Notes: generated by a model from the letters alone, not told the origin. A stretch of DNA of 44,021 nt from Bacteroidota bacterium (GCA_013287375.1 JABDDX010000014.1:1-44021); one strand, 5' to 3'; counted from the first letter of the stretch, positions 27,209-41,950 are shown. Numbers and translations are program-made.

Positions 27209-27571
27209 ATGTTAAAACGTATTTTAGTATTGGATGATAATCAGGATATTCTTGATATCGTGCAGGAAACCCTGGCTTATGAGCAATTTGATGTTAAAAG
27301 CCTCACACGCGGCATAGATGTTTTGCCAATGGTTCAGGAATTCTTACCTGATTTGGTAATTTTAGATTATCGTGTAGCAGGAGCGAACGGCGGCGAGATA
27401 TGCCGGCAAATAAAAGCACACCCTAAATTTAATGCAATCCCGGTAATTATTTTTTCAGCCTATATCAATAGGGATAGCGAGCTTTTGGCCTATGGTTGCG
27501 ATGCCATAATCAACAAACCATTCGATTTAACAGAATTGATTGAAAAGGTAAATAATTTAGTATCCAAATAA
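27209..27571 (+). CDS. Stand-alone response regulator receiver (CheY-like), copy 1
   Basis: A 120-residue single receiver domain. Acidic pocket D9-D10, phospho-acceptor D53 (LVILDYR), S83 (IIFSAY) and K103 (INKPFD) are all present, so it should be phosphorylatable. There is no output domain, and no histidine kinase gene in the window. It may act as an intermediate in a phosphorelay or bind a partner directly. A similar receiver follows at 28233; both carry DDNQDILD, suggesting a common origin. Confidence 0.92.
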   Translation: MLKRILVLDDNQDILDIVQETLAYEQFDVKSLTRGIDVLPMVQEFLPDLVILDYRVAGANGGEICRQIKAHPKFNAIPVIIFSAYINRDSELLAYGCDAIINKPFDLTELIEKVNNLVSK

Positions 27572-28232: not shown

Positions 28233-28640
28233 ATGGAAGCAGCAGGAAATAATTTCGGCGATAACGTAATTGACATGAAAAGGATTTTAGCGGTGGATGA
28301 CAATCAGGACATTCTAGACGTATTACGTTATATTTTAGAAGATTCAGGTTATGAAGTAGATACACTCAGCGATGGACATGACCTATTCAGCCAAATAGCA
28401 AAGAGCCATCCCGACTTAATATTACTTGATATTATGCTTGGCGATATGGATGGCCGGGTATTGTGCAAAAATGTTAAACAAACCGCCGCAACACACAATA
28501 TTCCTGTTATTCTAGTTTCTGCAAGTCATAATATTGCCGATAGCATGAAACAAAATGGCGCCCCGGATGACTTCATTGCAAAACCATTTGATATACATGT
28601 ATTGCTTAATTCTATTGAGCGACAGTTAACTGCAGCATAA
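28233..28640 (+). CDS. Stand-alone response regulator receiver (CheY-like), copy 2
   Basis: A single receiver domain of 135 residues from ATG 28233, or 121 from ATG 28275 (MKRILAVDDNQDILDVLRY). The shorter form has the same layout as copy 1. Numbered from the second ATG, D8-D9, D52 (LILLDIM), S82 (ILVSAS) and K103 (IAKPFD) are present. No output domain. It shares the DDNQDILD block with copy 1 but differs strongly elsewhere. The role as a phosphorelay element is inferred. Confidence 0.9.
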   Translation: MEAAGNNFGDNVIDMKRILAVDDNQDILDVLRYILEDSGYEVDTLSDGHDLFSQIAKSHPDLILLDIMLGDMDGRVLCKNVKQTAATHNIPVILVSASHNIADSMKQNGAPDDFIAKPFDIHVLLNSIERQLTAA

Positions 28641-28867: not shown

Positions 28868-31800
28868 ATGTTAAAACTCAAATACCTCACTTTTGTATTG
28901 CCCGTACTATTTGTTTTGTCGTCAAATGCCCAGCAATCACCAGCTTATTGGGTAAACAAAACTTACCGCACAGCTACCGATCTGCTAAATGACGGTAAAT
29001 ATGCATCGGCCGCCGAGCAATTCCGGCAGGTGGAGAACGCTACATATAAAACAACTACCCAAAAGCAGTTCGAATCAGAAATATCGTTATTAAAAGAAAA
29101 CGCCCAATATTACGAGGCTTTCTGTGCCCTGCAATTAGGTAATGACGATGCCGAAAGTATGTTCCTGCGTTTTATAAAGGAGTATCCTGAAAATCCTTTA
29201 GCTAAGTTGGCTTATTTCCAGATAGGTAAATCATATTTTAAACAACAAAAATATGAAGATGCCTTACGCTGGTTTGATAAAGTACAAGCCGGAGAGTTAA
29301 GCGGCAGCGAAAACACCGAGTACAAATTTTTAAAAGGCTACGCGTATTTCTCCATAAACGATTACAAAAATGCGCAGGAGCTTTTTGCTGAGGTGAAAAA
29401 CCGCCATTCAAAATACACTGAAGATGCTACTTATTATTTCGCTTATATTTCTTATTTAAATAAAGACTACCATTTGGCATTGGTAAACTTTGAAAAATTA
29501 AAGAATTCTAAAAAATATGAGGACAGCTATCCATACTACATCACAGCCGTTTACTTTTTAGATAAGCGTTATGATGATGTACTTGCCTATGCTATCCCAA
29601 TCCTGAATACTACGCACCAACAGCACGAAACCGAAATGCTGCGCATCGTAGGTTCTTCCTATTTTGCTAAGGCCGATTATGATAAAGCGGTTAATTATTT
29701 CAGCCGTTTCCAGGATGAAGATCAGGGTAAAACCCAAAGCACACAGGATAGCTACGAAATTGGTTATACTTATTACAAGGTCGGCAACAATGCTAAAGCA
29801 GCTGTCGAACTGGAAAAACTGGTTGATCACGATGATATCTACAGCCAAAGCGGTGATTATACCCTGGGCGATGTTTTCCTGAAAATGGGTAATAAGCAGA
29901 GCGCCCGTAATGCCTTCCTTGGTGCATCAAAACTAAATTTTGATTATAAGTTACAGGAAGACGCGCTTTATCAATACTCCAAACTATCTTACGAGCTTGA
30001 TTTTAACTTAGAGGCGCTGAACGCTACCCGCAAATACTTAAAAAATTACCCACGTGCAACCCGTACCGAAGAAGTTAAAATATTATTAGGCGAAGAGCTA
30101 CTTAACTCCCACAACTACGCCGAAGCAGTTGATATTTTGGAGCCGATACAAAACAAATCAGAAAGCGCGCGTATAGCTTATCAAAAGGTTACTTACTACC
30201 GCGGCTTACAGTTTTATAACGAACGGGCGTTTGAAAACGCGATAGGCATATTCCTGCGTTCACTAAAATTTCCTGAAGATTCAAAAATCGCAGCTTTAAC
30301 CACCTATTGGATGGCTGAGGCAATGTACGAAGTGCGTAAATATGATGAGTCGGTTGAAACTTTCCAGCAGTTTTTAGATATGCCGGAGTCAAGGGAAACC
30401 GACGTTCATAACTACGCCAACTATGCTTTAGCTTATGCGGCATTTGGCGGCGAGAAGTATAGAACGGCAGCTACCTACTTCCAGAAGTTTTTAGCAGGTG
30501 ACGAAAAAGATACCGCCACTACTAATGACGCGATAGCACGCCTGGCCGACAGCTATTTTGTGCTGAAAAGCTATAATGATGCCTTAACATATTATGATAA
30601 GATAATAGCTAAGCACAATTCAAGCGAAGATTATGCCTTATTTCAACGCGGTATAATACAAGGCTTGCAAGGATCGCAGGATAACAAGATAACCACCCTT
30701 ACCGAAGTGCTTAACCGCTTCCCTAATTCTGATTATGCTGACGATGCATCTTTTGAAATAGCCTATGCTTATTTCCTTAAAAATGATGGTCCGACTGCTA
30801 AAACTGATCTGGAAGCTATGATCGCTAAGTACCCGCATAGCAGCTATGTGCCACGGGCATTAGCTACAATTGGGTTAATAGATTATAACGCTGGTAATGA
30901 TGACCTGGCTGTTGAATCATTCAAAAAAGTAATCGCGGATTATTCTTCGACCGACGAGGCAAAGCAATCCCTGAAACAGATTCAGAAAATATATACCGAT
31001 AAAGGCGATGCGCAAACCTTTATAACCTATGCGGCCACCACACCAATAGGTAACTACACCAGCGCTGAGCAGGAAGACATTATGTTCACCGCCGCGAATA
31101 ACTTGTATCTGCGTGGCGATTGGAATGGTACCGTGAATGCGGTAAATGCTTATTTTGATAAGTTCCCAACCAAACCTATCTACAATAAACAAGCACGGTT
31201 CATCAGGGCCGAAAGCTTGGTTGCCCTGGGCAAACCTGCTGATGCCGTAAATGATTACAACGTAATATTAAACGATTGGACAAGCACTTATACCGAGAAA
31301 TCACTCATCAGCATGGCGAAACTATACATCGCGCAGCAAAAATATAATGATGCGGTTGTATTCTTGAAAAAGCTGGAGATTAACTCCGAATATAAAGAGG
31401 ATTATACCTTCGCTATAAATAACCTGTTATTGTGCTACGCGCAAATGGGTATGGCTGATGAAGCGCTTAACTATGTGAAACAGGTACGTGCAAATGATAA
31501 ATCATCACAGGAAGATAAATTCAAAACAGGCTTATACGCTGGTCAGGCTTATTTAGCTAAAGGTGATACTACCCGTGCTATTAACGAATTTGATTATACC
31601 ATAAGCAATACCAAAACGGTTGCTGCTGCCGAGGCAAAATATAACGTAGCCTATATTGATTACCTGAAACATCGATATAAAACATCACAAAAAACATGTT
31701 TCGATCTGGCTAAGGATTTCCCTAACTATGATTACTGGATAGCTAAAACCTATATTTTATTGGCTGATGATTATGTTGGGTTAAAAGATAACTTCCAGGC

Positions 31801-31984
31801 AAAAGCTACGCTGCAAAGTATAATTGATAACTACAAAGGCAACGACGATATATTACCAACCGCTAAACAAAAGCTGGCTACGCTAAGTGGTAAAACTTAT
31901 GAGCCGCCAGTAGCAGCGCCAGATACTACACAAAGCGTTAAACCGGATACTACAACTACTAAACCTGCAGGCAATGGTAATTAA
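28868..31984 (+). CDS. Large exported tetratricopeptide-repeat protein (1038 aa)
   Basis: A signal peptide (MLKLKYLTFVLPVLFVLSSNAQ) is followed by some 25 helix pairs. TPR consensus units are easy to see, for example LAKLAYFQIGKSYFKQQKYE and YKFLKGYAYFSINDYKNAQE. The C-terminus is a disordered Pro/Thr-rich tail (TTQSVKPDTTTTKPAGNGN). It is probably periplasmic and acts as a protein-binding scaffold. I use the ATG at 28868; the TTG at 28853 would lengthen the signal oddly. It is the first gene of a tight same-strand run (TPR, barrel, HU/SPOR, ExbB, ExbD, TonB). In Tol-Pal the TPR protein CpoB holds a comparable place, though it is much smaller. Confidence 0.88.
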   Translation: MLKLKYLTFVLPVLFVLSSNAQQSPAYWVNKTYRTATDLLNDGKYASAAEQFRQVENATYKTTTQKQFESEISLLKENAQYYEAFCALQLGNDDAESMFLRFIKEYPENPLAKLAYFQIGKSYFKQQKYEDALRWFDKVQAGELSGSENTEYKFLKGYAYFSINDYKNAQELFAEVKNRHSKYTEDATYYFAYISYLNKDYHLALVNFEKLKNSKKYEDSYPYYITAVYFLDKRYDDVLAYAIPILNTTHQQHETEMLRIVGSSYFAKADYDKAVNYFSRFQDEDQGKTQSTQDSYEIGYTYYKVGNNAKAAVELEKLVDHDDIYSQSGDYTLGDVFLKMGNKQSARNAFLGASKLNFDYKLQEDALYQYSKLSYELDFNLEALNATRKYLKNYPRATRTEEVKILLGEELLNSHNYAEAVDILEPIQNKSESARIAYQKVTYYRGLQFYNERAFENAIGIFLRSLKFPEDSKIAALTTYWMAEAMYEVRKYDESVETFQQFLDMPESRETDVHNYANYALAYAAFGGEKYRTAATYFQKFLAGDEKDTATTNDAIARLADSYFVLKSYNDALTYYDKIIAKHNSSEDYALFQRGIIQGLQGSQDNKITTLTEVLNRFPNSDYADDASFEIAYAYFLKNDGPTAKTDLEAMIAKYPHSSYVPRALATIGLIDYNAGNDDLAVESFKKVIADYSSTDEAKQSLKQIQKIYTDKGDAQTFITYAATTPIGNYTSAEQEDIMFTAANNLYLRGDWNGTVNAVNAYFDKFPTKPIYNKQARFIRAESLVALGKPADAVNDYNVILNDWTSTYTEKSLISMAKLYIAQQKYNDAVVFLKKLEINSEYKEDYTFAINNLLLCYAQMGMADEALNYVKQVRANDKSSQEDKFKTGLYAGQAYLAKGDTTRAINEFDYTISNTKTVAAAEAKYNVAYIDYLKHRYKTSQKTCFDLAKDFPNYDYWIAKTYILLADDYVGLKDNFQAKATLQSIIDNYKGNDDILPTAKQKLATLSGKTYEPPVAAPDTTQSVKPDTTTTKPAGNGN

Positions 31985-32015
31985 CAGGATGATGACCACA
32001 AACACGAGACAAGCA

Positions 32016-33851
32016 ATGAAACTACGCTATATATATACGCTGCTTACCTTAATTGCGCTGCTATACTTTGCCCCGGCAAATGCGCAAACCAAGCCCAAGA
32101 CTAAAAAAGCTGCTGCTAAAACTGTTGCTAAAAAGTCTGCAAAAAAAGCGGTGAAAACCGCATCTACCCAGAAATCAGATGCGAAAAAGATTGGCGATGC
32201 CGTAGCTAGAACAAATTCAGCTGCGGATACAGCTAAATCAGGAGGTAACAATCCTAACAAAAACAGCAACAGCCTGTCGGAAGAAATTGTAGTTACTACC
32301 GATTACAAACCGGTTTTGGCCGATGCGGTAAAAATTAGGCGTAACCCTGATTTGGAAGACGCGACACCATATAAAGCGCCTTTAACTTATACGCCGCTGG
32401 ATATTAGATTAGAGCAAAATAGCGACATCCGCCAGTTAGATGCCATGAAAATGCCTGCCCAACAGGATTCCATTCCAACAAACAACTTTATACAGGTTGG
32501 TTTGGGTAACTTAAAAACCACCTATGGCGAAGGTTATTTCAGTACTGGCCCTGATCAGGGTTTACAAGCTGGTGGTTATATTAAACACCTTTCCGAGCAG
32601 GGCAGCCTTAATAAACAAAATGAAAGCACAAACGAGGTTGGCATATTTGGTAAAAGCGTAGGCGCAACCAACTCGCTTAATGGCCGTATCGACTATAAAT
32701 ACAACAGCAATTATTTTTATGGCTACGATCAGGCAGACCCATCAACCGAAGTTAACCCGGGTAAACAACATTTCAGCATACTAAGTGCCGAAGGCGACCT
32801 GGCAAAAAACTATGCCGATGTACCTAATGATTTTACTTATGCCTTAAAACTTAAAGGTTACACTTATAGCGATGCTTACGATGCCCGCGAAAGCAATGTG
32901 GTTTTATCAGGCTTTTTAAACGAAACCGTTAAACAGTTTTATGCAGGTGTAGCCGGTTCATTAGATCTCACTACCCAAAAAGATAGCCTGTATAATTACA
33001 ACAATAGCTTATTGCGCATAAACCCGTACATCAAATTCCAGGGTGATATGTATAAGATAGATGCAGGTGTAAACATTGTGGATCAGTTTGGCTTTAGCAG
33101 CAACTTCTACATATTCCCGGCAGCTAAACTGGAGTTACAGGTTATACCAAAATATGTACGCTTATTTGTTGAAGCCAAAGGCGATGTAAATAAATCTACC
33201 TTATTGGATTTCTCAACTGTTAACCCATTTATCGGTCAAAATATCGACATCAAAAATTCGGTCGACAAATTGGATCTGAGCGCTGGTTTAAAAGGAACAT
33301 TAGCGCCGGGGCTTAGCTTTAAGGCCTTTATTTTCCGCAACAGCGTTAAATACATGCCGCTAATGGTGAGCAATTTTGGTCCGGGTGGTAATAAATTTGC
33401 TGTTATTTATGATAATGGCGACTCGCGTATTAACGGCTTTACCGGCGAGCTGGACTACAAAGCATCCGACGATGTGGACGTATTTGGCCGTGTAGAGTTT
33501 AAAGACTACCAGATGGCACAACAGGCACAAGCCTGGAACTTGCCTAAGTTTAAATTAACCGCAGGTACCGCCATCCATATTAACCGTAAAGTTGATATTA
33601 CAGGTTCGTTATTATTACGCGGAACAACTTATGATCTTCCTTATGCTGATGCTTTAACAGCCAAAAGCGCGGTTACACCAACCACAATTGGCTCTTTTGT
33701 TGATTTAAGTGGTGGTGTTAATTATAAGGCCACCAATAAGATCAGCATTTTTGTGAAAGTAAATAACATCCTTGATCGCACAAATACAACGTGGTTATAT
33801 TACCCTGATTATGGGTTTAATATATTCGGCGGGGTTGGTTTTGCTTTTTAA
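32016..33851 (+). CDS. TonB-dependent-receptor-like beta-barrel without plug, with a Lys/Ala-rich N-terminus
   Basis: 611 residues. After the signal peptide (MKLRYIYTLLTLIALLYFAPANAQ), residues 25-60 are Lys/Ala-rich, much like histone H1 tails. EEIVVTTDYKP at 89-99 resembles a TonB box, but no typical plug domain follows. Residues about 160-611 are amphipathic strands with the TonB-dependent-receptor ending (VKVNNILDRTN..., final Phe). It should sit in the outer membrane. I start at 32016 because a normal signal peptide begins there; an in-frame ATG at 31974 overlaps the TPR gene. Possibly it is a fixed outer-membrane anchor or partner of the local TonB complex and not a nutrient receptor. 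Confidence 0.8.
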   Translation: MKLRYIYTLLTLIALLYFAPANAQTKPKTKKAAAKTVAKKSAKKAVKTASTQKSDAKKIGDAVARTNSAADTAKSGGNNPNKNSNSLSEEIVVTTDYKPVLADAVKIRRNPDLEDATPYKAPLTYTPLDIRLEQNSDIRQLDAMKMPAQQDSIPTNNFIQVGLGNLKTTYGEGYFSTGPDQGLQAGGYIKHLSEQGSLNKQNESTNEVGIFGKSVGATNSLNGRIDYKYNSNYFYGYDQADPSTEVNPGKQHFSILSAEGDLAKNYADVPNDFTYALKLKGYTYSDAYDARESNVVLSGFLNETVKQFYAGVAGSLDLTTQKDSLYNYNNSLLRINPYIKFQGDMYKIDAGVNIVDQFGFSSNFYIFPAAKLELQVIPKYVRLFVEAKGDVNKSTLLDFSTVNPFIGQNIDIKNSVDKLDLSAGLKGTLAPGLSFKAFIFRNSVKYMPLMVSNFGPGGNKFAVIYDNGDSRINGFTGELDYKASDDVDVFGRVEFKDYQMAQQAQAWNLPKFKLTAGTAIHINRKVDITGSLLLRGTTYDLPYADALTAKSAVTPTTIGSFVDLSGGVNYKATNKISIFVKVNNILDRTNTTWLYYPDYGFNIFGGVGFAF

Positions 33852-33889
33852 ACTTTGTAAATTTTATAATTAAGTTTACTTTTAGCAAA

Positions 33890-34999
33890 ATGGATGTAGC
33901 CTATTATTTAAGCGAACTATTAATGCAAAATGGCGAGGTAAATGTACCCGGCCTGGGCTACTTTGTGCAGTTAAAAGTTGATGGCTATTATGATAATGAG
34001 CAAAGTAAATTCTATCCGCCAACTAGTAAATTACAATTTGACCAGCAATATCAGGATGATGATGTGCTGCTGCAATATATAGCTGAGAAAAAGAAGATCT
34101 CGCTGGCATCATCAAAATACTTCACCGCTAAATTTATTGATAATTTAAGGCAGGAGGCTATGATTAAGGAAGTGCCCCTTGCCGATTTAGGTACGCTCTA
34201 TTTTGAGGATACCAAATTGCATTTTAAACCTGCCGAAGCTTTACCCATTGATCCGGCATATTATGGTTATCAACCGGTTGAAATCAATAAATTGGGCGGC
34301 ACCTCATTCCATGAACAACTGGAAAAAGAAATGCCCCGCCCTGAACCTATTGGTCTAATAGACACGCTCCCGGTTCAGGAACAGGTGGCTTCGCAGGAAG
34401 AAGAGTTTATATTTAATGGCAGAGGATATTCAGACGAAGAGGTAGAAGAAAAAAACAATAACTGGATATGGATAACCATTACAGCGGTTGTTCTGTTAGG
34501 CATAATCGGTGTATTTGCATTGTATAAATTTAACCCGGCTGTATATAACAGGCTAATTGGCGCGCAACACCCCGCGCCAATCATATTAAAAGCACCGGTA
34601 AAACACGATACCACAAAAACAGTAGCTCCTGCTGTTATTAAAGCAGATTCGACTGCAAGCAGCACAAAAAAGGTAATAGCCGATACTACGGCAAAACCAG
34701 CGAGCGTTAATATAGCAGCTCCGGTTAATACGGCAGCGCCAATTGATACTTTTTCCAGAGTTAGGTATGAATTATTAGGAGGTGCGTTTCAAACCATTGC
34801 GGAAGCTAACAGAACGATTAGAAATTATAAAAAACTTGGTTTTGAAGCCAGGATAGTTAAAAATGCCCCCGGTAAATTATTCAAAGTAACATTAGGTACT
34901 TATTTTACAGCTGATGATGCAGTAAATGCTATGCATGCCATACAAAAGACCGGAAAAATTAGTGAGATAAGCATACAACCCTATAATCCCCAAAAATGA
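33890..34999 (+). CDS. HU-CCDC81-like and SPOR domain membrane protein
   Basis: 369 residues in three parts. Residues 1 to about 118 contain two HU-like (CCDC81-type) units: DVAYYLSELLMQNGEVNVPGLGYF and SSKYFTAKFIDNLRQEAMIKEVPLADLGTLYF. A single transmembrane helix runs from about 192 to 213 (WIWITITAVVLLGIIGVFAL). After a Thr/Ala/Pro linker, residues about 292-367 form a SPOR domain (YELLGGAFQTIAEANRTIRN... FKVTLGTYFTADDA). SPOR binds glycan strands lacking stem peptides at division sites in known proteins. Predicted topology puts HU in the cytoplasm and SPOR in the periplasm. It overlaps exbB by four bases (ATGA), so the two are translationally coupled. Confidence 0.88.
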   Translation: MDVAYYLSELLMQNGEVNVPGLGYFVQLKVDGYYDNEQSKFYPPTSKLQFDQQYQDDDVLLQYIAEKKKISLASSKYFTAKFIDNLRQEAMIKEVPLADLGTLYFEDTKLHFKPAEALPIDPAYYGYQPVEINKLGGTSFHEQLEKEMPRPEPIGLIDTLPVQEQVASQEEEFIFNGRGYSDEEVEEKNNNWIWITITAVVLLGIIGVFALYKFNPAVYNRLIGAQHPAPIILKAPVKHDTTKTVAPAVIKADSTASSTKKVIADTTAKPASVNIAAPVNTAAPIDTFSRVRYELLGGAFQTIAEANRTIRNYKKLGFEARIVKNAPGKLFKVTLGTYFTADDAVNAMHAIQKTGKISEISIQPYNPQK

Positions 35000-35706
35000 G
35001 TTTATTACTACAAGTAACAGATACGGCGCACAAGATAGCAGACACAGTAAAGAATCTTTCACAAACCGGCGGGGCCACAACGGGCGATACCCTTCGTTTC
35101 GGAGATTTATTGGTTAAAGGTGGCGTCATCATGATACCCATTGGTATTTTGGCAGTTTTAGGTTTAGTTATATTCTTTGAACGATATTTCACCATCCGCA
35201 AAGCTTCAAAAAGCGATGCTAACCTGCTAATGCAGGTACGCTCAAGCATACATACCGGTAATTTAGAATCAGCCATTGCTATCTGCAGAAACAGTAACTC
35301 GCCGCTTGGCCGTATGTTGCAAAAAGGTTTGTTAAGGATAGGCAGGCCTATAAAAGATATTGAAGGAGCTATTGAAAATATAGGCAAACTGGAAGTTGCC
35401 AAGCTCGACAAGAATATAGGCATCCTGGGTATTATTGCGGGTATTGCCCCAATGTTCGGCTTCTTAGGTACCATTTATGGTGTAATTAAAATATTTTATG
35501 ACATCGCCCAGTCGGGTAACCTGAGTATTGGTGTTATATCCGGTGGTTTGTATGTGAAGATGGTAACGGCCGCCGCGGGTTTATTTGTGGGGATGGTTGC
35601 CTATATATTCTATCACATTTTAAATATGATGGTTGATAAGGTAATATTAAAATTAGAGACCGACGCCATTGAATTTATTGACTTGTTAGAGGAGCCAAGC
35701 AAATGA
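34996..35706 (+). CDS. exbB: ExbB/TolQ/MotA-family proton-channel protein
   Basis: 236 residues. First membrane helix about 42-61 (GGVIMIPIGILAVLGLVIFF), then a cytoplasmic loop with SPLGRMLQKGLLRIG, then helices about 135-160 (NIGILGIIAGIAPMFGFLGTIYGVI) and 175-205. The GxxAPxxGLLGTVxG-like block is the ExbB signature. With ExbD it forms the proton-driven motor that energises a TonB-like protein. Its start overlaps the SPOR gene stop and its stop overlaps the exbD start (both ATGA), so stoichiometry is coupled. Confidence 0.93.
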   Translation: MSLLLQVTDTAHKIADTVKNLSQTGGATTGDTLRFGDLLVKGGVIMIPIGILAVLGLVIFFERYFTIRKASKSDANLLMQVRSSIHTGNLESAIAICRNSNSPLGRMLQKGLLRIGRPIKDIEGAIENIGKLEVAKLDKNIGILGIIAGIAPMFGFLGTIYGVIKIFYDIAQSGNLSIGVISGGLYVKMVTAAAGLFVGMVAYIFYHILNMMVDKVILKLETDAIEFIDLLEEPSK

Positions 35707-36101
35707 ATTTAAGTAACAGGAAAAAAAGGATTGCTGCCGAAGTACAAACCTCAGCTATGAACGATATTATGTTCTTCCTGCTGTTGTTTTTCCTCATCGC
35801 GTCAACAATAACCAATCCTAACGTTATTAAATTAACGCTGCCCAAATCATCAACAAGCCAGTCAGAATCTAAGAAGACCATCAATGTGTCAATCACCGGC
35901 GATCTGAAATACTACGTCGACAAAAAACAAGTAAACGTTGACGACCTGCAATCAGCAATATCAGCATTTAAAACACCTGATGCTGATTTAACCATTGTGT
36001 TATATGTTGATAAAACAGTAGCCATCCAAAATGCGGTACAGGTAATGGATGTGGCACAAAAAATGAATATAAAACTGGTACTGGCAACAGAACCGAAATA
36101 G
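35703..36101 (+). CDS. exbD: ExbD/TolR-family protein
   Basis: 132 residues with one membrane helix (about 19-37). SAMNDIMFFLLLFFLI places Asp21 at the start of the helix, where ExbD/TolR has its essential proton-carrying Asp. A periplasmic ExbD domain follows (INVSITGDLKYYVDKKQVNV ... LVLATEPK). It starts within the exbB stop codon. An inverted-repeat element follows within three bases of the stop, so it separates exbD from the TonB-like gene. Confidence 0.94.
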   Translation: MNLSNRKKRIAAEVQTSAMNDIMFFLLLFFLIASTITNPNVIKLTLPKSSTSQSESKKTINVSITGDLKYYVDKKQVNVDDLQSAISAFKTPDADLTIVLYVDKTVAIQNAVQVMDVAQKMNIKLVLATEPK

Positions 36102-36103
36102 AG

Positions 36104-36184
36104 TTTAGTATCAAGTAATTAGTATCAAGTAGCAAGACTGAAGCTGCTGTACTATGTACTTGATACTAGCTACTTGATACTAAA
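36104..36184. repeat. 28-base inverted repeat abutting the tonB-like start codon
   Basis: The arms 36104-36131 and 36157-36184 are complementary except for two positions. Each arm carries two copies of TAGTATCAAGTA or its complement, so the element has four copies in alternating order. The second arm ends at the base before the ATG at 36185 and covers the ribosome-binding region. Confidence 0.8.
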
Positions 36185-36994
36185 ATGGAGTACAGAGAAG
36201 AAAATAACTATCCAAAAGCATTTTTAGCAACAGGCATTATTCTGGTTGCACTGATGGCTATGTGTTATTTTATGGTATTCACCCCGCCGCCAAAGCCCGA
36301 TGAAGGTACCGGCGGCATCCTGGTAAATTATGGCACAACAGATGCCGGTATGGGAAGCGATTACATGAGCGTAGATCAACCCTCAGTAGCCGAAAAGGCT
36401 AATCATACATTGCCAACTAAAGCAACCCCTGCGCCACCTACCGAGCAAAAAACACAGGTTGATAATAGCGACAAAAAGATAGTCACTCAAAATAATGAGG
36501 ATGCGCCATCTGTGGCTACAAATAGTAAAAAACCAAGTAATACCGTAGCTACCCAGGCCATTAAAACAGTAGCCAAACCTGTTGTTAATCAAAATGCGCT
36601 TTACAAAGGCAAAACCAACAACGGCACCGGCTCAGGTGATGGTACTACCAATACCCCCGGTAACCAGGGTAAGCCTACAGGCAGTACGCTAACCAACAAC
36701 TACAATGGTACAGGATCGGGCAATGGCGGTAACCTTAGCCTTGGACAACGTAGCTTTGTTACCCGCCCGGTAGTTACTGATGAAAAGCGAAGAACAGGAA
36801 AAATTGTTATTGATATACATGTAGATAAAAACGGCAACGTTATTTATGCCGAATCTGGCCGTGGTACTACCATGACAGACTATGATCTGATACAAAAATG
36901 CGAGAACGCGGTTAGAAATTCCAAAATTAACGCGGTTGACACCGCGCCTGATACCCAGGAAGGCACTGTAGTATTTGTATTCAAAGTGAACTAG
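36185..36994 (+). CDS. Energy transducer TonB-like protein
   Basis: 269 residues. A short cytoplasmic tail, one membrane helix (about 13-32), then PPPKP, a Thr/Asn/Gly-rich low-complexity linker (about 55-190) and a TonB/TolA C-terminal fold (TGKIVIDIHVDKNGNVIYAE ... EGTVVFVFKVN). Unlike a classical TonB, the linker lacks long Pro-Lys/Pro-Glu repeats and is rich in Asn-Gly. It reaches across the periplasm, probably to the barrel in this cluster or to other receptors. The two-base mismatch hairpin just before its ATG could lower its translation compared with exbB/exbD. Confidence 0.85.
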   Translation: MEYREENNYPKAFLATGIILVALMAMCYFMVFTPPPKPDEGTGGILVNYGTTDAGMGSDYMSVDQPSVAEKANHTLPTKATPAPPTEQKTQVDNSDKKIVTQNNEDAPSVATNSKKPSNTVATQAIKTVAKPVVNQNALYKGKTNNGTGSGDGTTNTPGNQGKPTGSTLTNNYNGTGSGNGGNLSLGQRSFVTRPVVTDEKRRTGKIVIDIHVDKNGNVIYAESGRGTTMTDYDLIQKCENAVRNSKINAVDTAPDTQEGTVVFVFKVN

Positions 36995-40438: not shown

Positions 40439-41341
40439 TTAATTGTTGGTATCATCATCAACGTTATCCTGTAATGCGTTGGTTAAACTGTTAGTATTAA
40501 CCGGCGTATTTTCATCAATAACGGTATGTTGTGTATCATTCGCGTCAACATCATCCTGCAGGTAACTTTGAATATCGCTTGTTGAAACGGTAGATAATTG
40601 CTTGTGCAAAAATGAACTGTTATGGTCATCTGCCGGCGCCGAAAATCGGCTTAACAGCAAACCGCCACCTACAAACACTGCAAAACAAGCTGCCGCCGCG
40701 TATTTGAATGTATTAGTAGCATACATTCGCCTAACTATTCCTTTGCGCTTAACTACATCCTGCTTAACCGTTTTGTTTAATATGGCATTATTAAGCTTGT
40801 CAAAATAATCGGCAGGTACACTAAAGCTTTCTTCGCTAACGGTCTCTTCAATCAGGATACGCGCGTTTATTTGTTGCTCAAAGGCGTTAAAATAATCTTC
40901 CGGTACAGCATGGCCGTGGGCATCGTTATTTACGTAAGCCTCAATATTTATCCTGCTTTGTATGTTACTGCTTAACTCGTCGAAGTAATTTTGAGGTACG
41001 GTAAATTCACCTTCCGACCTAAGCTCCTCCAAATTAATACGGCTTTGTATGTTGCTGCTTAATTCATCAAAATAATTTTGAGGGACAGTAAAGTCCTCTT
41101 TGGATTTTAATTCCTCTAAATTGATGCGGCTTTGTATATTATTGCTTAACTCGTCAAAGTAATTTTCAGGCACAGTAAAGCCTTTATCGGACTTTAGCTC
41201 ATCCAGCTTAATTGCCGAGATGATCCGTTGTTCCGATTCATCAAAATAGCCTGGTGGCACAGTAAACGGGTTCAGGGGATTAACCAGTTTAAGTGACATG
41301 AATTCATCCAGCCATTCTCTATTTCCACTTTCGCTTTTCAT
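40439..41341 (-). CDS. Membrane protein with six ~29-residue repeats, probable anti-sigma factor
   Basis: 300 residues. Six repeats start near residues 26, 55, 84, 113, 144 and 173, each with the pattern (F/H)xVPxxYFDELxxxIxxRI (fully seen in FTVPQNYFDELSSNIQSRIN). A transmembrane helix follows at about 213-231 (FKYAAAACFAVFVGGGLLLS), then an acidic Asp/Asn-rich periplasmic tail. The single motif is common in Bacteroidota proteins beside ECF sigma factors. The repeat domain is predicted cytoplasmic, where it could bind the sigma factor encoded 51 bases upstream. No classical zinc anti-sigma motif is present. Repeats 2-4 are nearly identical at DNA level, a sign of recent expansion. Confidence 0.75.
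   Translation of the reverse strand: MKSESGNREWLDEFMSLKLVNPLNPFTVPPGYFDESEQRIISAIKLDELKSDKGFTVPENYFDELSNNIQSRINLEELKSKEDFTVPQNYFDELSSNIQSRINLEELRSEGEFTVPQNYFDELSSNIQSRINIEAYVNNDAHGHAVPEDYFNAFEQQINARILIEETVSEESFSVPADYFDKLNNAILNKTVKQDVVKRKGIVRRMYATNTFKYAAAACFAVFVGGGLLLSRFSAPADDHNSSFLHKQLSTVSTSDIQSYLQDDVDANDTQHTVIDENTPVNTNSLTNALQDNVDDDTNN
40742..41266 (-). repeat. Tandem coding repeats (six units of about 87 bases)
   Basis: Nucleotides encoding residues 26-200 of the anti-sigma-like protein. The units are about 87-93 bases long. The second, third and fourth units are almost the same in DNA sequence, the first and last two have drifted. Repeat-number change by slippage or recombination is therefore plausible. 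Confidence 0.75.
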
Positions 41342-41392: not shown

Positions 41393-41950
41393 TTAATCTT
41401 TTGATAATAAGAAAGTTTCTATTTTTTTTACCGCGAGGTGAAAAGATGCCTTCAATGCGCCTACACTTGTTCCCACCACATCTGATATTTCCTCATACTT
41501 CATATCCTCATAATATTTCATATTAAATACCAGGCGCTGTTTATCGGGTAGGGTAAGCAACGCTTCCTGTAATCTGCGTTGTGCCTTATCACCATCAAAA
41601 TAACTTGATGCCGCTAATGTATCGCCGAGTGTAGAGTCCACATCATCCAGCGAAATATTATTTTTCGCTTTTTTCTTGTTTAGGAAAGTAATGCATTCAT
41701 TGGTAGCGATGCGATACATCCAGGTATATAATTGGGCATCCGCACGAAAAGTGAGCAGGTTTTTCCAAACCTTCACAAATACATCCTGCGCAATATCATC
41801 GGCATCATCATGGTCTATCACCATGCGGCGGATGTGCCAGTAAATCTTTTGCTGGTATTTCTTCAGCAGCAGGTTAAAAGCCTCGTTCCGGGTTTTCTCA
41901 TCCTGAAACTTGCTTAAAATCTCCGCATCCTCAACAACCTGTACCGACAT
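41393..41950 (-). CDS. ECF-type RNA polymerase sigma factor
   Basis: 185 residues. Region 2 lies at about 23-90, with DHDDADDIAQDVFVKVWKNL and TWMYRIATNECITFLNKKK (core binding and -10 recognition). Region 4 is at about 125-180 (LLTLPDKQRLVFNMKYYEDMKYEEISDVVGTSVGALKASFHLAVKKI), a helix-turn-helix for -35 recognition. It directs polymerase to a stress regulon and is probably held by the downstream membrane protein. The 51-base gap before that gene suggests one transcript for sigma factor, anti-sigma-like gene and Spy-like gene. Confidence 0.95.
   Translation of the reverse strand: MSVQVVEDAEILSKFQDEKTRNEAFNLLLKKYQQKIYWHIRRMVIDHDDADDIAQDVFVKVWKNLLTFRADAQLYTWMYRIATNECITFLNKKKAKNNISLDDVDSTLGDTLAASSYFDGDKAQRRLQEALLTLPDKQRLVFNMKYYEDMKYEEISDVVGTSVGALKASFHLAVKKIETFLLSKD

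Follow-up and report, generated by a model that had tools for sequence, protein, structure and literature searches.

A conserved six-gene cluster of Bacteroidota encodes a candidate Tol-Pal-like envelope machine

We analysed a 44,021-nucleotide stretch of Bacteroidota DNA (GCA_013287375.1 JABDDX010000014.1:1-44021; hereafter the window), in which positions 28868–36994 hold a six-gene cluster that a first-pass annotation had proposed to be a Tol-Pal-like division machine. The window is part of a metagenome-assembled genome (MAG) of Mucilaginibacter, and its tetratricopeptide-repeat (TPR) protein is 96–98% identical to the closest named TPR proteins (Mucilaginibacter sp. E4BP6, L196). The MAG is 58% complete, so all statements on distribution are drawn from other genomes. 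Gene calls confirm that the six genes lie on one strand where they had been annotated, and that the HU-SPOR/ExbB and ExbB/ExbD junctions carry the ATGA overlaps claimed for them, 4 bp each (Table 1). The usual next gene in relatives is folC. The gene mtgA, 1 kb downstream in the window and initially cited alongside the proposed division role, lies near the cluster only in the two closest relatives; we therefore rejected it as a member and regard it as an accidental neighbour, and this part of the earlier case falls. A σ70 promoter scan found sites no more numerous than in shuffled sequence.

Table 1. Features of the six-gene cluster in the window (TM, transmembrane; TBDT, TonB-dependent transporter)
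Feature	Position	Strand	Basis
TPR protein, 1038 aa, ~25 repeats	28868..31984	+	gene call, domain searches
Predicted plug-less 22-strand outer-membrane barrel, TBDT type	31974..33851 (alternative start 32013)	+	AlphaFold2, PDB comparison
Barrel N-terminal segment, conserved, disordered: TonB-box-like EEIVVT then YKPxLxDAxKIxxxP	32280..32392	+	column conservation, AlphaFold2
HU-HU (cytoplasmic)-TM helix (191-214)-SPOR (292-365, periplasmic) protein	33890..34999	+	domain searches, structure model
ExbB/TolQ-family motor subunit	34996..35706	+	MotA_ExbB (PF01618) 8e-23; T148-equivalent conservation
ExbD/TolR-family motor subunit, proton-carrying Asp conserved	35703..36101	+	PF02472 1e-27; Asp25-equivalent conservation
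TonB/TolA-like force transducer: TM helix, low-complexity spacer, TonB-C-like end	36185..36994	+	weak in window; PF03544 in orthologues

The six-gene order is conserved far beyond chance. TPR-barrel-HUSPOR-ExbB-ExbD-TonB is exact in 72 of 80 named loci, that is, in all 72 that are not truncated (the other 8 stop at contig ends), and in 20/20 other family-level relatives. Among 197 Bacteroidia genomes, the barrel is present in 188, HU-SPOR in 193 and ExbB in 196, in alignment-based counts whose weakest matches may be paralogues. PF18174 alone overlooked many HU-SPOR orthologues and was replaced by alignment, while the first barrel profile overlooked divergent classes and was refined. In 39 of 40 Bacteroidia loci, which cover many families, the gene immediately upstream of the barrel encodes the TPR protein. 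Barrel and HU-SPOR are adjacent, in this order, in 21 of 127 genomes (7 families), HU-SPOR and ExbB in 21 of 119 (9 families), and barrel and ExbB are linked in 19 of 125 (5 families), each against fewer than 0.1 expected by chance; the chance model, a simple one, takes no account of common descent, which makes the number of families the more reliable gauge of linkage.

Outside Bacteroidia, we examined 20 further barrel loci together with L103 and L105, and nearly all hold most of the cluster, so that the expected co-conservation of the TPR, barrel and SPOR genes with exbBD is found in relatives, in Bacteroidia and beyond the class. Specifically, the cluster is largely intact in 11 non-Bacteroidia families (f-numbers are anonymous family handles): f31 and f33 have barrel-HUSPOR-ExbB-ExbD-TonB; f23, f28, f35, f39, f40 and f45 have TPR-barrel-HUSPOR-ExbB-ExbD, with TonB where detected; f43 has TPR-barrel-ExbB-ExbD-TonB; f29 has TPR-barrel-HUSPOR; and f34 has the same with a weak TonB match. 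The sequence comparisons thus suggest that the cluster is probably ancestral to most of Bacteroidota and was dispersed in many Bacteroidia. The barrel and the cluster-type ExbB also tend to disappear together, as in f54, f66 and one genus of f61; a Fisher test that takes no account of phylogeny gives p 3e-6.

The TPR protein (TPR_6, 4.6e-37 in a Pfam search) is predicted to be a soluble periplasmic solenoid with a Sec signal peptide rather than a lipoprotein, and about 70 of 75 orthologues have Sec-type N-termini. It scores 178.6 bits against TIGR02795 ybgF (cut-off 90.1) across 8 stretches, as a protein made of 1038 aa of repeats, and 29 of 383 bits against PRK10803 CpoB. An assignment to PorW/SprE of the type IX secretion system (T9SS) was rejected, as NCBIfam NF052312 gives 52.6 bits, below its cut-off of 250.

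The barrel protein of the window matches no Pfam or NCBIfam model, while the orthologue at L288 matches PF00593. The AlphaFold2 model has 22 long strands in residues 171–625, with a predicted local distance difference test score (pLDDT) mostly above 90, and residues 37–167 are disordered and lie outside the barrel. Consistent with the model, comparison with the PDB aligns the protein with the barrels of FhuA and BtuB (Z about 20–22) and not with their plugs, the aligned range beginning at the barrel in nearly all structure matches listed. Model and comparison together bear out the plug-less barrel of the first-pass annotation. The N-terminal tail contains the TonB-box-like EEIVVT in Mucilaginibacter; its hydrophobic pattern is kept in most of 61 sequences and the exact motif is variable, while the Y-x-P-x-L-x-D-A-x-K-I-x-x-x-P that follows is the more conserved part of the tail across families. 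The cluster has the motor, the TonB-like transducer, the 22-strand fold and the TonB-box-like tail in common with TonB-dependent transport. It differs in that its barrel is plug-less, is accompanied by HU-SPOR and a giant TPR protein, and is nearly universal, with one copy per genome in most genomes. Because the model lacks a plug, the barrel is, on structure prediction, not a canonical TBDT.

A plug-less barrel of this type would be an open 22-strand pore, and export is a serious rival to a division role, albeit one we consider unlikely. Under it, the barrel would be a conduit through which TonB-derived energy drives export or flipping at the outer membrane, surface lipoproteins or lipids being conceivable cargo, with the TPR solenoid as periplasmic receptor or bridge, the motor as energy source, and HU-SPOR only biasing the location. 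The near-universality of the barrel in Bacteroidia is what a core envelope process would show, its joint loss with the cluster ExbB fits too, and the route of lipoproteins to the Bacteroidota surface has an unsolved step (PMC11885536), for which an exporting barrel would be a candidate. However, the loci read reveal no recurrent linkage to genes for lipoproteins or lipid transport, and export leaves unexplained both HU-SPOR in the cluster of many families and the FtsE and EnvC neighbours described below.

The HU-SPOR protein matches HU-CCDC81_bac_1 (8.3e-10) and SPOR (4.2e-5) in Pfam. Its structure model has HU-like folds N-terminally, followed by a TM helix and SPOR; this combination of two HU domains, TM helix and SPOR places it in the HU-CCDC81/SPOR family. 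In structure comparison, the SPOR fold matches DedD, FtsN and an RlpA/denuded-glycan complex, and the matches of the protein include a sea-urchin doublet-microtubule chain, possibly CCDC81. Burroughs et al. (2017) reportedly described CCDC81-type HU/SPOR proteins of Bacteroidetes (Pfam PF18174/PF18175), with which the cluster protein shares family and topology. In the papers available to us, our literature search found no description of a phylum-wide linkage of HU-SPOR to motor, barrel and TPR, and nothing direct on CCDC81/SPOR or on Bacteroidetes division. Outside Bacteroidia (L103, L276, L278, L279, L289), a small HU-like open reading frame of 65–138 aa is often found ahead of the HU-SPOR gene, as though the HU pair had been divided between two genes, while at L232 the HU and SPOR parts appear as separate genes.

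Combining two HU folds with a TM helix and SPOR, the HU-SPOR protein could itself be the functional centre, tying the chromosome to the septal wall in segregation or a closure checkpoint, with motor and barrel serving envelope tension indirectly. Retention of HU-SPOR in f66, which lacks the barrel and the cluster-type ExbB, and its adjacency to dprA in f16 loci favour this arrangement, which we nevertheless judge highly improbable: in f57 HU-SPOR is missing or marginal while barrel and ExbB remain, and the HU domains are divergent, their DNA binding is putative, and their eukaryotic relative CCDC81 is centrosomal or axonemal.

The motor subunits retain the residues of the proton path. The ExbB residue equivalent to T148 is invariant in 50 sequences, and the ExbD residue equivalent to Asp25 is conserved in 51 of 51. 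At the position of T181, where every other aligned sequence has Ser or Thr, the window ExbB has an Ala, preceded at a distance of one or two residues by a Thr. Against NCBIfam models the motor scores 67 bits for tolQ (cut-off 221) and 42 bits for tolR (cut-off 127), and in an ExbB tree with E. coli TolQ and ExbB the branches are too long to place it nearer either. The transducer of the window matches the TonB C terminus only marginally (0.0098), while the orthologues at L105 and L274 match PF03544 (TonB_C) above the Pfam cut-off.

Such a motor could simply be an ordinary energiser of uptake, with the TPR-barrel pair and HU-SPOR as housekeeping genes that stayed neighbours. Riemerella has an exbB (24 kDa)-exbD (14.7 kDa)-tonB1 (30.6 kDa) operon that energises haem uptake and functions in haem uptake in E. 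coli (PMC4446302); by analogy of size and layout, it looks orthologous to the cluster motor. Since that operon is dispensable on serum plates and drives haem uptake, the cluster motor likely has more than one client, and division is probably not its sole task. The modules are also separate in many families. General supply nonetheless appears distinctly unlikely as the whole explanation, given that several Bacteroidia families and 11 non-Bacteroidia families share the gene order, that the motor tends to be lost together with the barrel, and that the window's genome (G000:C50; L001, L114) has for uptake a second, typical ExbB of about 280 aa, accompanied by a pair of ExbD genes, in the same layout as the TonB2 uptake system of Riemerella.

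The distribution of TolB bears on a division role. We searched 158 genomes (33 of f27 and 125 others) with NCBIfam TIGR02800, the TolB_N domain (PF04052) having been rejected as too insensitive a marker (4 of 33 f27 genomes). Full-length TIGR02800 is found in all 33 f27 genomes (31 above the cut-off and 2 just below) and in none of the 125 others, hence in no barrel-bearing genome. The full-length barrel has the opposite distribution, occurring in 113 of the 125 and in 0 of the 33, where the barrel profile matches only C-terminal fragments of ordinary receptors. The f27 genomes are probably Chlorobi, a name we infer, and tol-pal has been reported in Chlorobi (PMC7391070); Bacteroidetes are reported to lack identifiable tol-pal loci (PMC12204202). 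An rpoC tree joins f27 to f25 and f38 and puts the three between two groups that carry the barrel; its deep forks are modestly supported. Judged by these sequence markers, the pattern is compatible with a replacement. The anticorrelation with canonical tolQRA-pal, suggested as a check with the original proposal, comes out positive as far as TolB and barrel exclude each other in the sampled genomes, and is qualified by the confinement of TolB to one clade.

The cluster resembles Tol-Pal in having an ExbB/ExbD-family proton motor, a single-TM transducer, and a co-encoded TPR protein and outer-membrane component. In contrast to Tol-Pal, the outer-membrane component is an integral 22-strand barrel, an HU-SPOR protein is added, and the TPR protein exceeds CpoB fourfold in length. 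There is no TolB among the cluster genes, nor an OmpA-like Pal lipoprotein, a genome-wide Pal search not having been made. Because TolB and Pal are absent from it, the cluster is not a member of the Tol-Pal family of systems and at most works like one.

The neighbourhood of the dispersed modules adds a link to division genes. At least 13 of 40 loci have FtsE divergently adjoining the TPR-barrel pair, the protein tested lying just under the FtsE cut-off, and eight f16 loci have an EnvC-like coiled-coil/M23 protein close to HU-SPOR. These neighbours, together with the joint loss of barrel and ExbB, point to the division envelope and to a coupling between barrel and motor. At the loci with an FtsE-like ATPase (L235, L238, L239, L246, L247, L249, L257, L260-L264, L266), gyrB is often on the other side. 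Many f16 genomes (L082-L093) have HU-SPOR between dprA and a 4HBT thioesterase, with the EnvC-like M23 protein beside the thioesterase.

The data show a conserved motor, barrel, scaffold and septal-adaptor gene set across the phylum, and its role is inferred from them. We favour a Tol-Pal-like role in division over any other single reading of the cluster, tentatively and at somewhat less than an even chance. The cluster would encode a machine of the ExbBD/TolQR type that spans the envelope and is powered by protons, in which an inner-membrane ExbB5-ExbD2 complex drives the TonB-like transducer. The transducer would cross the periplasm alongside or by way of the TPR solenoid, engage the disordered TonB-box-like tail of the barrel, and pull on the outer membrane. 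HU-SPOR, anchored in the inner membrane beside the motor, may recognise denuded septal peptidoglycan outside while its HU pair contacts DNA or a division partner inside, and through this recognition the force would act at the closing septum. The machine would thereby take part in constriction, standing in for Tol-Pal where a lineage has none. The fuller proposal goes further: most of the phylum would carry, in place of Tol-Pal, an ancestral division machine linking the proton motor to the chromosome through HU, to the septal peptidoglycan through SPOR and to the outer membrane through a plug-less barrel of TBDT descent with its TPR scaffold. This seems to us somewhat unlikely. The original proposal is partly supported: the division role retains from it the co-conservation and the TolB anticorrelation, gains the FtsE/EnvC-like neighbours and the barrel/ExbB co-loss, and loses mtgA and, probably, a motor reserved for division.

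Several observations weigh against a division role. The TolB exclusion rests on the single clade f27; both TolB and the barrel are missing from f25, f38 and f22; and TolB_N, besides recovering so few f27 genomes, matches in a Bacteroides control genome. The modules lie apart in many Bacteroidia, f57 and f66 break the association of HU-SPOR with barrel and ExbB in opposite directions, and the FtsE linkage, being divergent, could be neutral synteny. The window transducer lacks the TM His (SHLS-type) of TonB and TolA, which is absent in the window's family and kept in f20 (L252), f21 and f31. Deletion of tonB1 in Riemerella leaves normal colonies on serum plates (PMC4446302). Furthermore, a tether for the Tol-Pal role in Bacteroidetes has already been proposed, the CpoB-TolB-Pal fusion lipoprotein PorE (PMC12204202). 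PorE is a candidate for the same question and also contains TPR; unlike the cluster, it is a T9SS-linked lipoprotein with TolB- and Pal-like domains, has no adjoining motor genes reported, and is unrelated to the cluster barrel.

Bacteroidota are dominant in the human gut and across much of the environment, yet they are reported to have no tol-pal loci that can be identified (PMC12204202). The cluster is a concrete, conserved protein set that makes testable the question of how they constrict the outer membrane, and its barrel, which has no family model in the window, is present in most sampled genomes of the phylum.

Two further features of the window were noted by eye. Two single-domain response-regulator-like receivers (27209-27571 and 28233-28640) lie just upstream of the cluster, and a protein with repeated FTVPxxYFDEL motifs (40439-41341) adjoins a sigma-factor-like gene (41393-41950).

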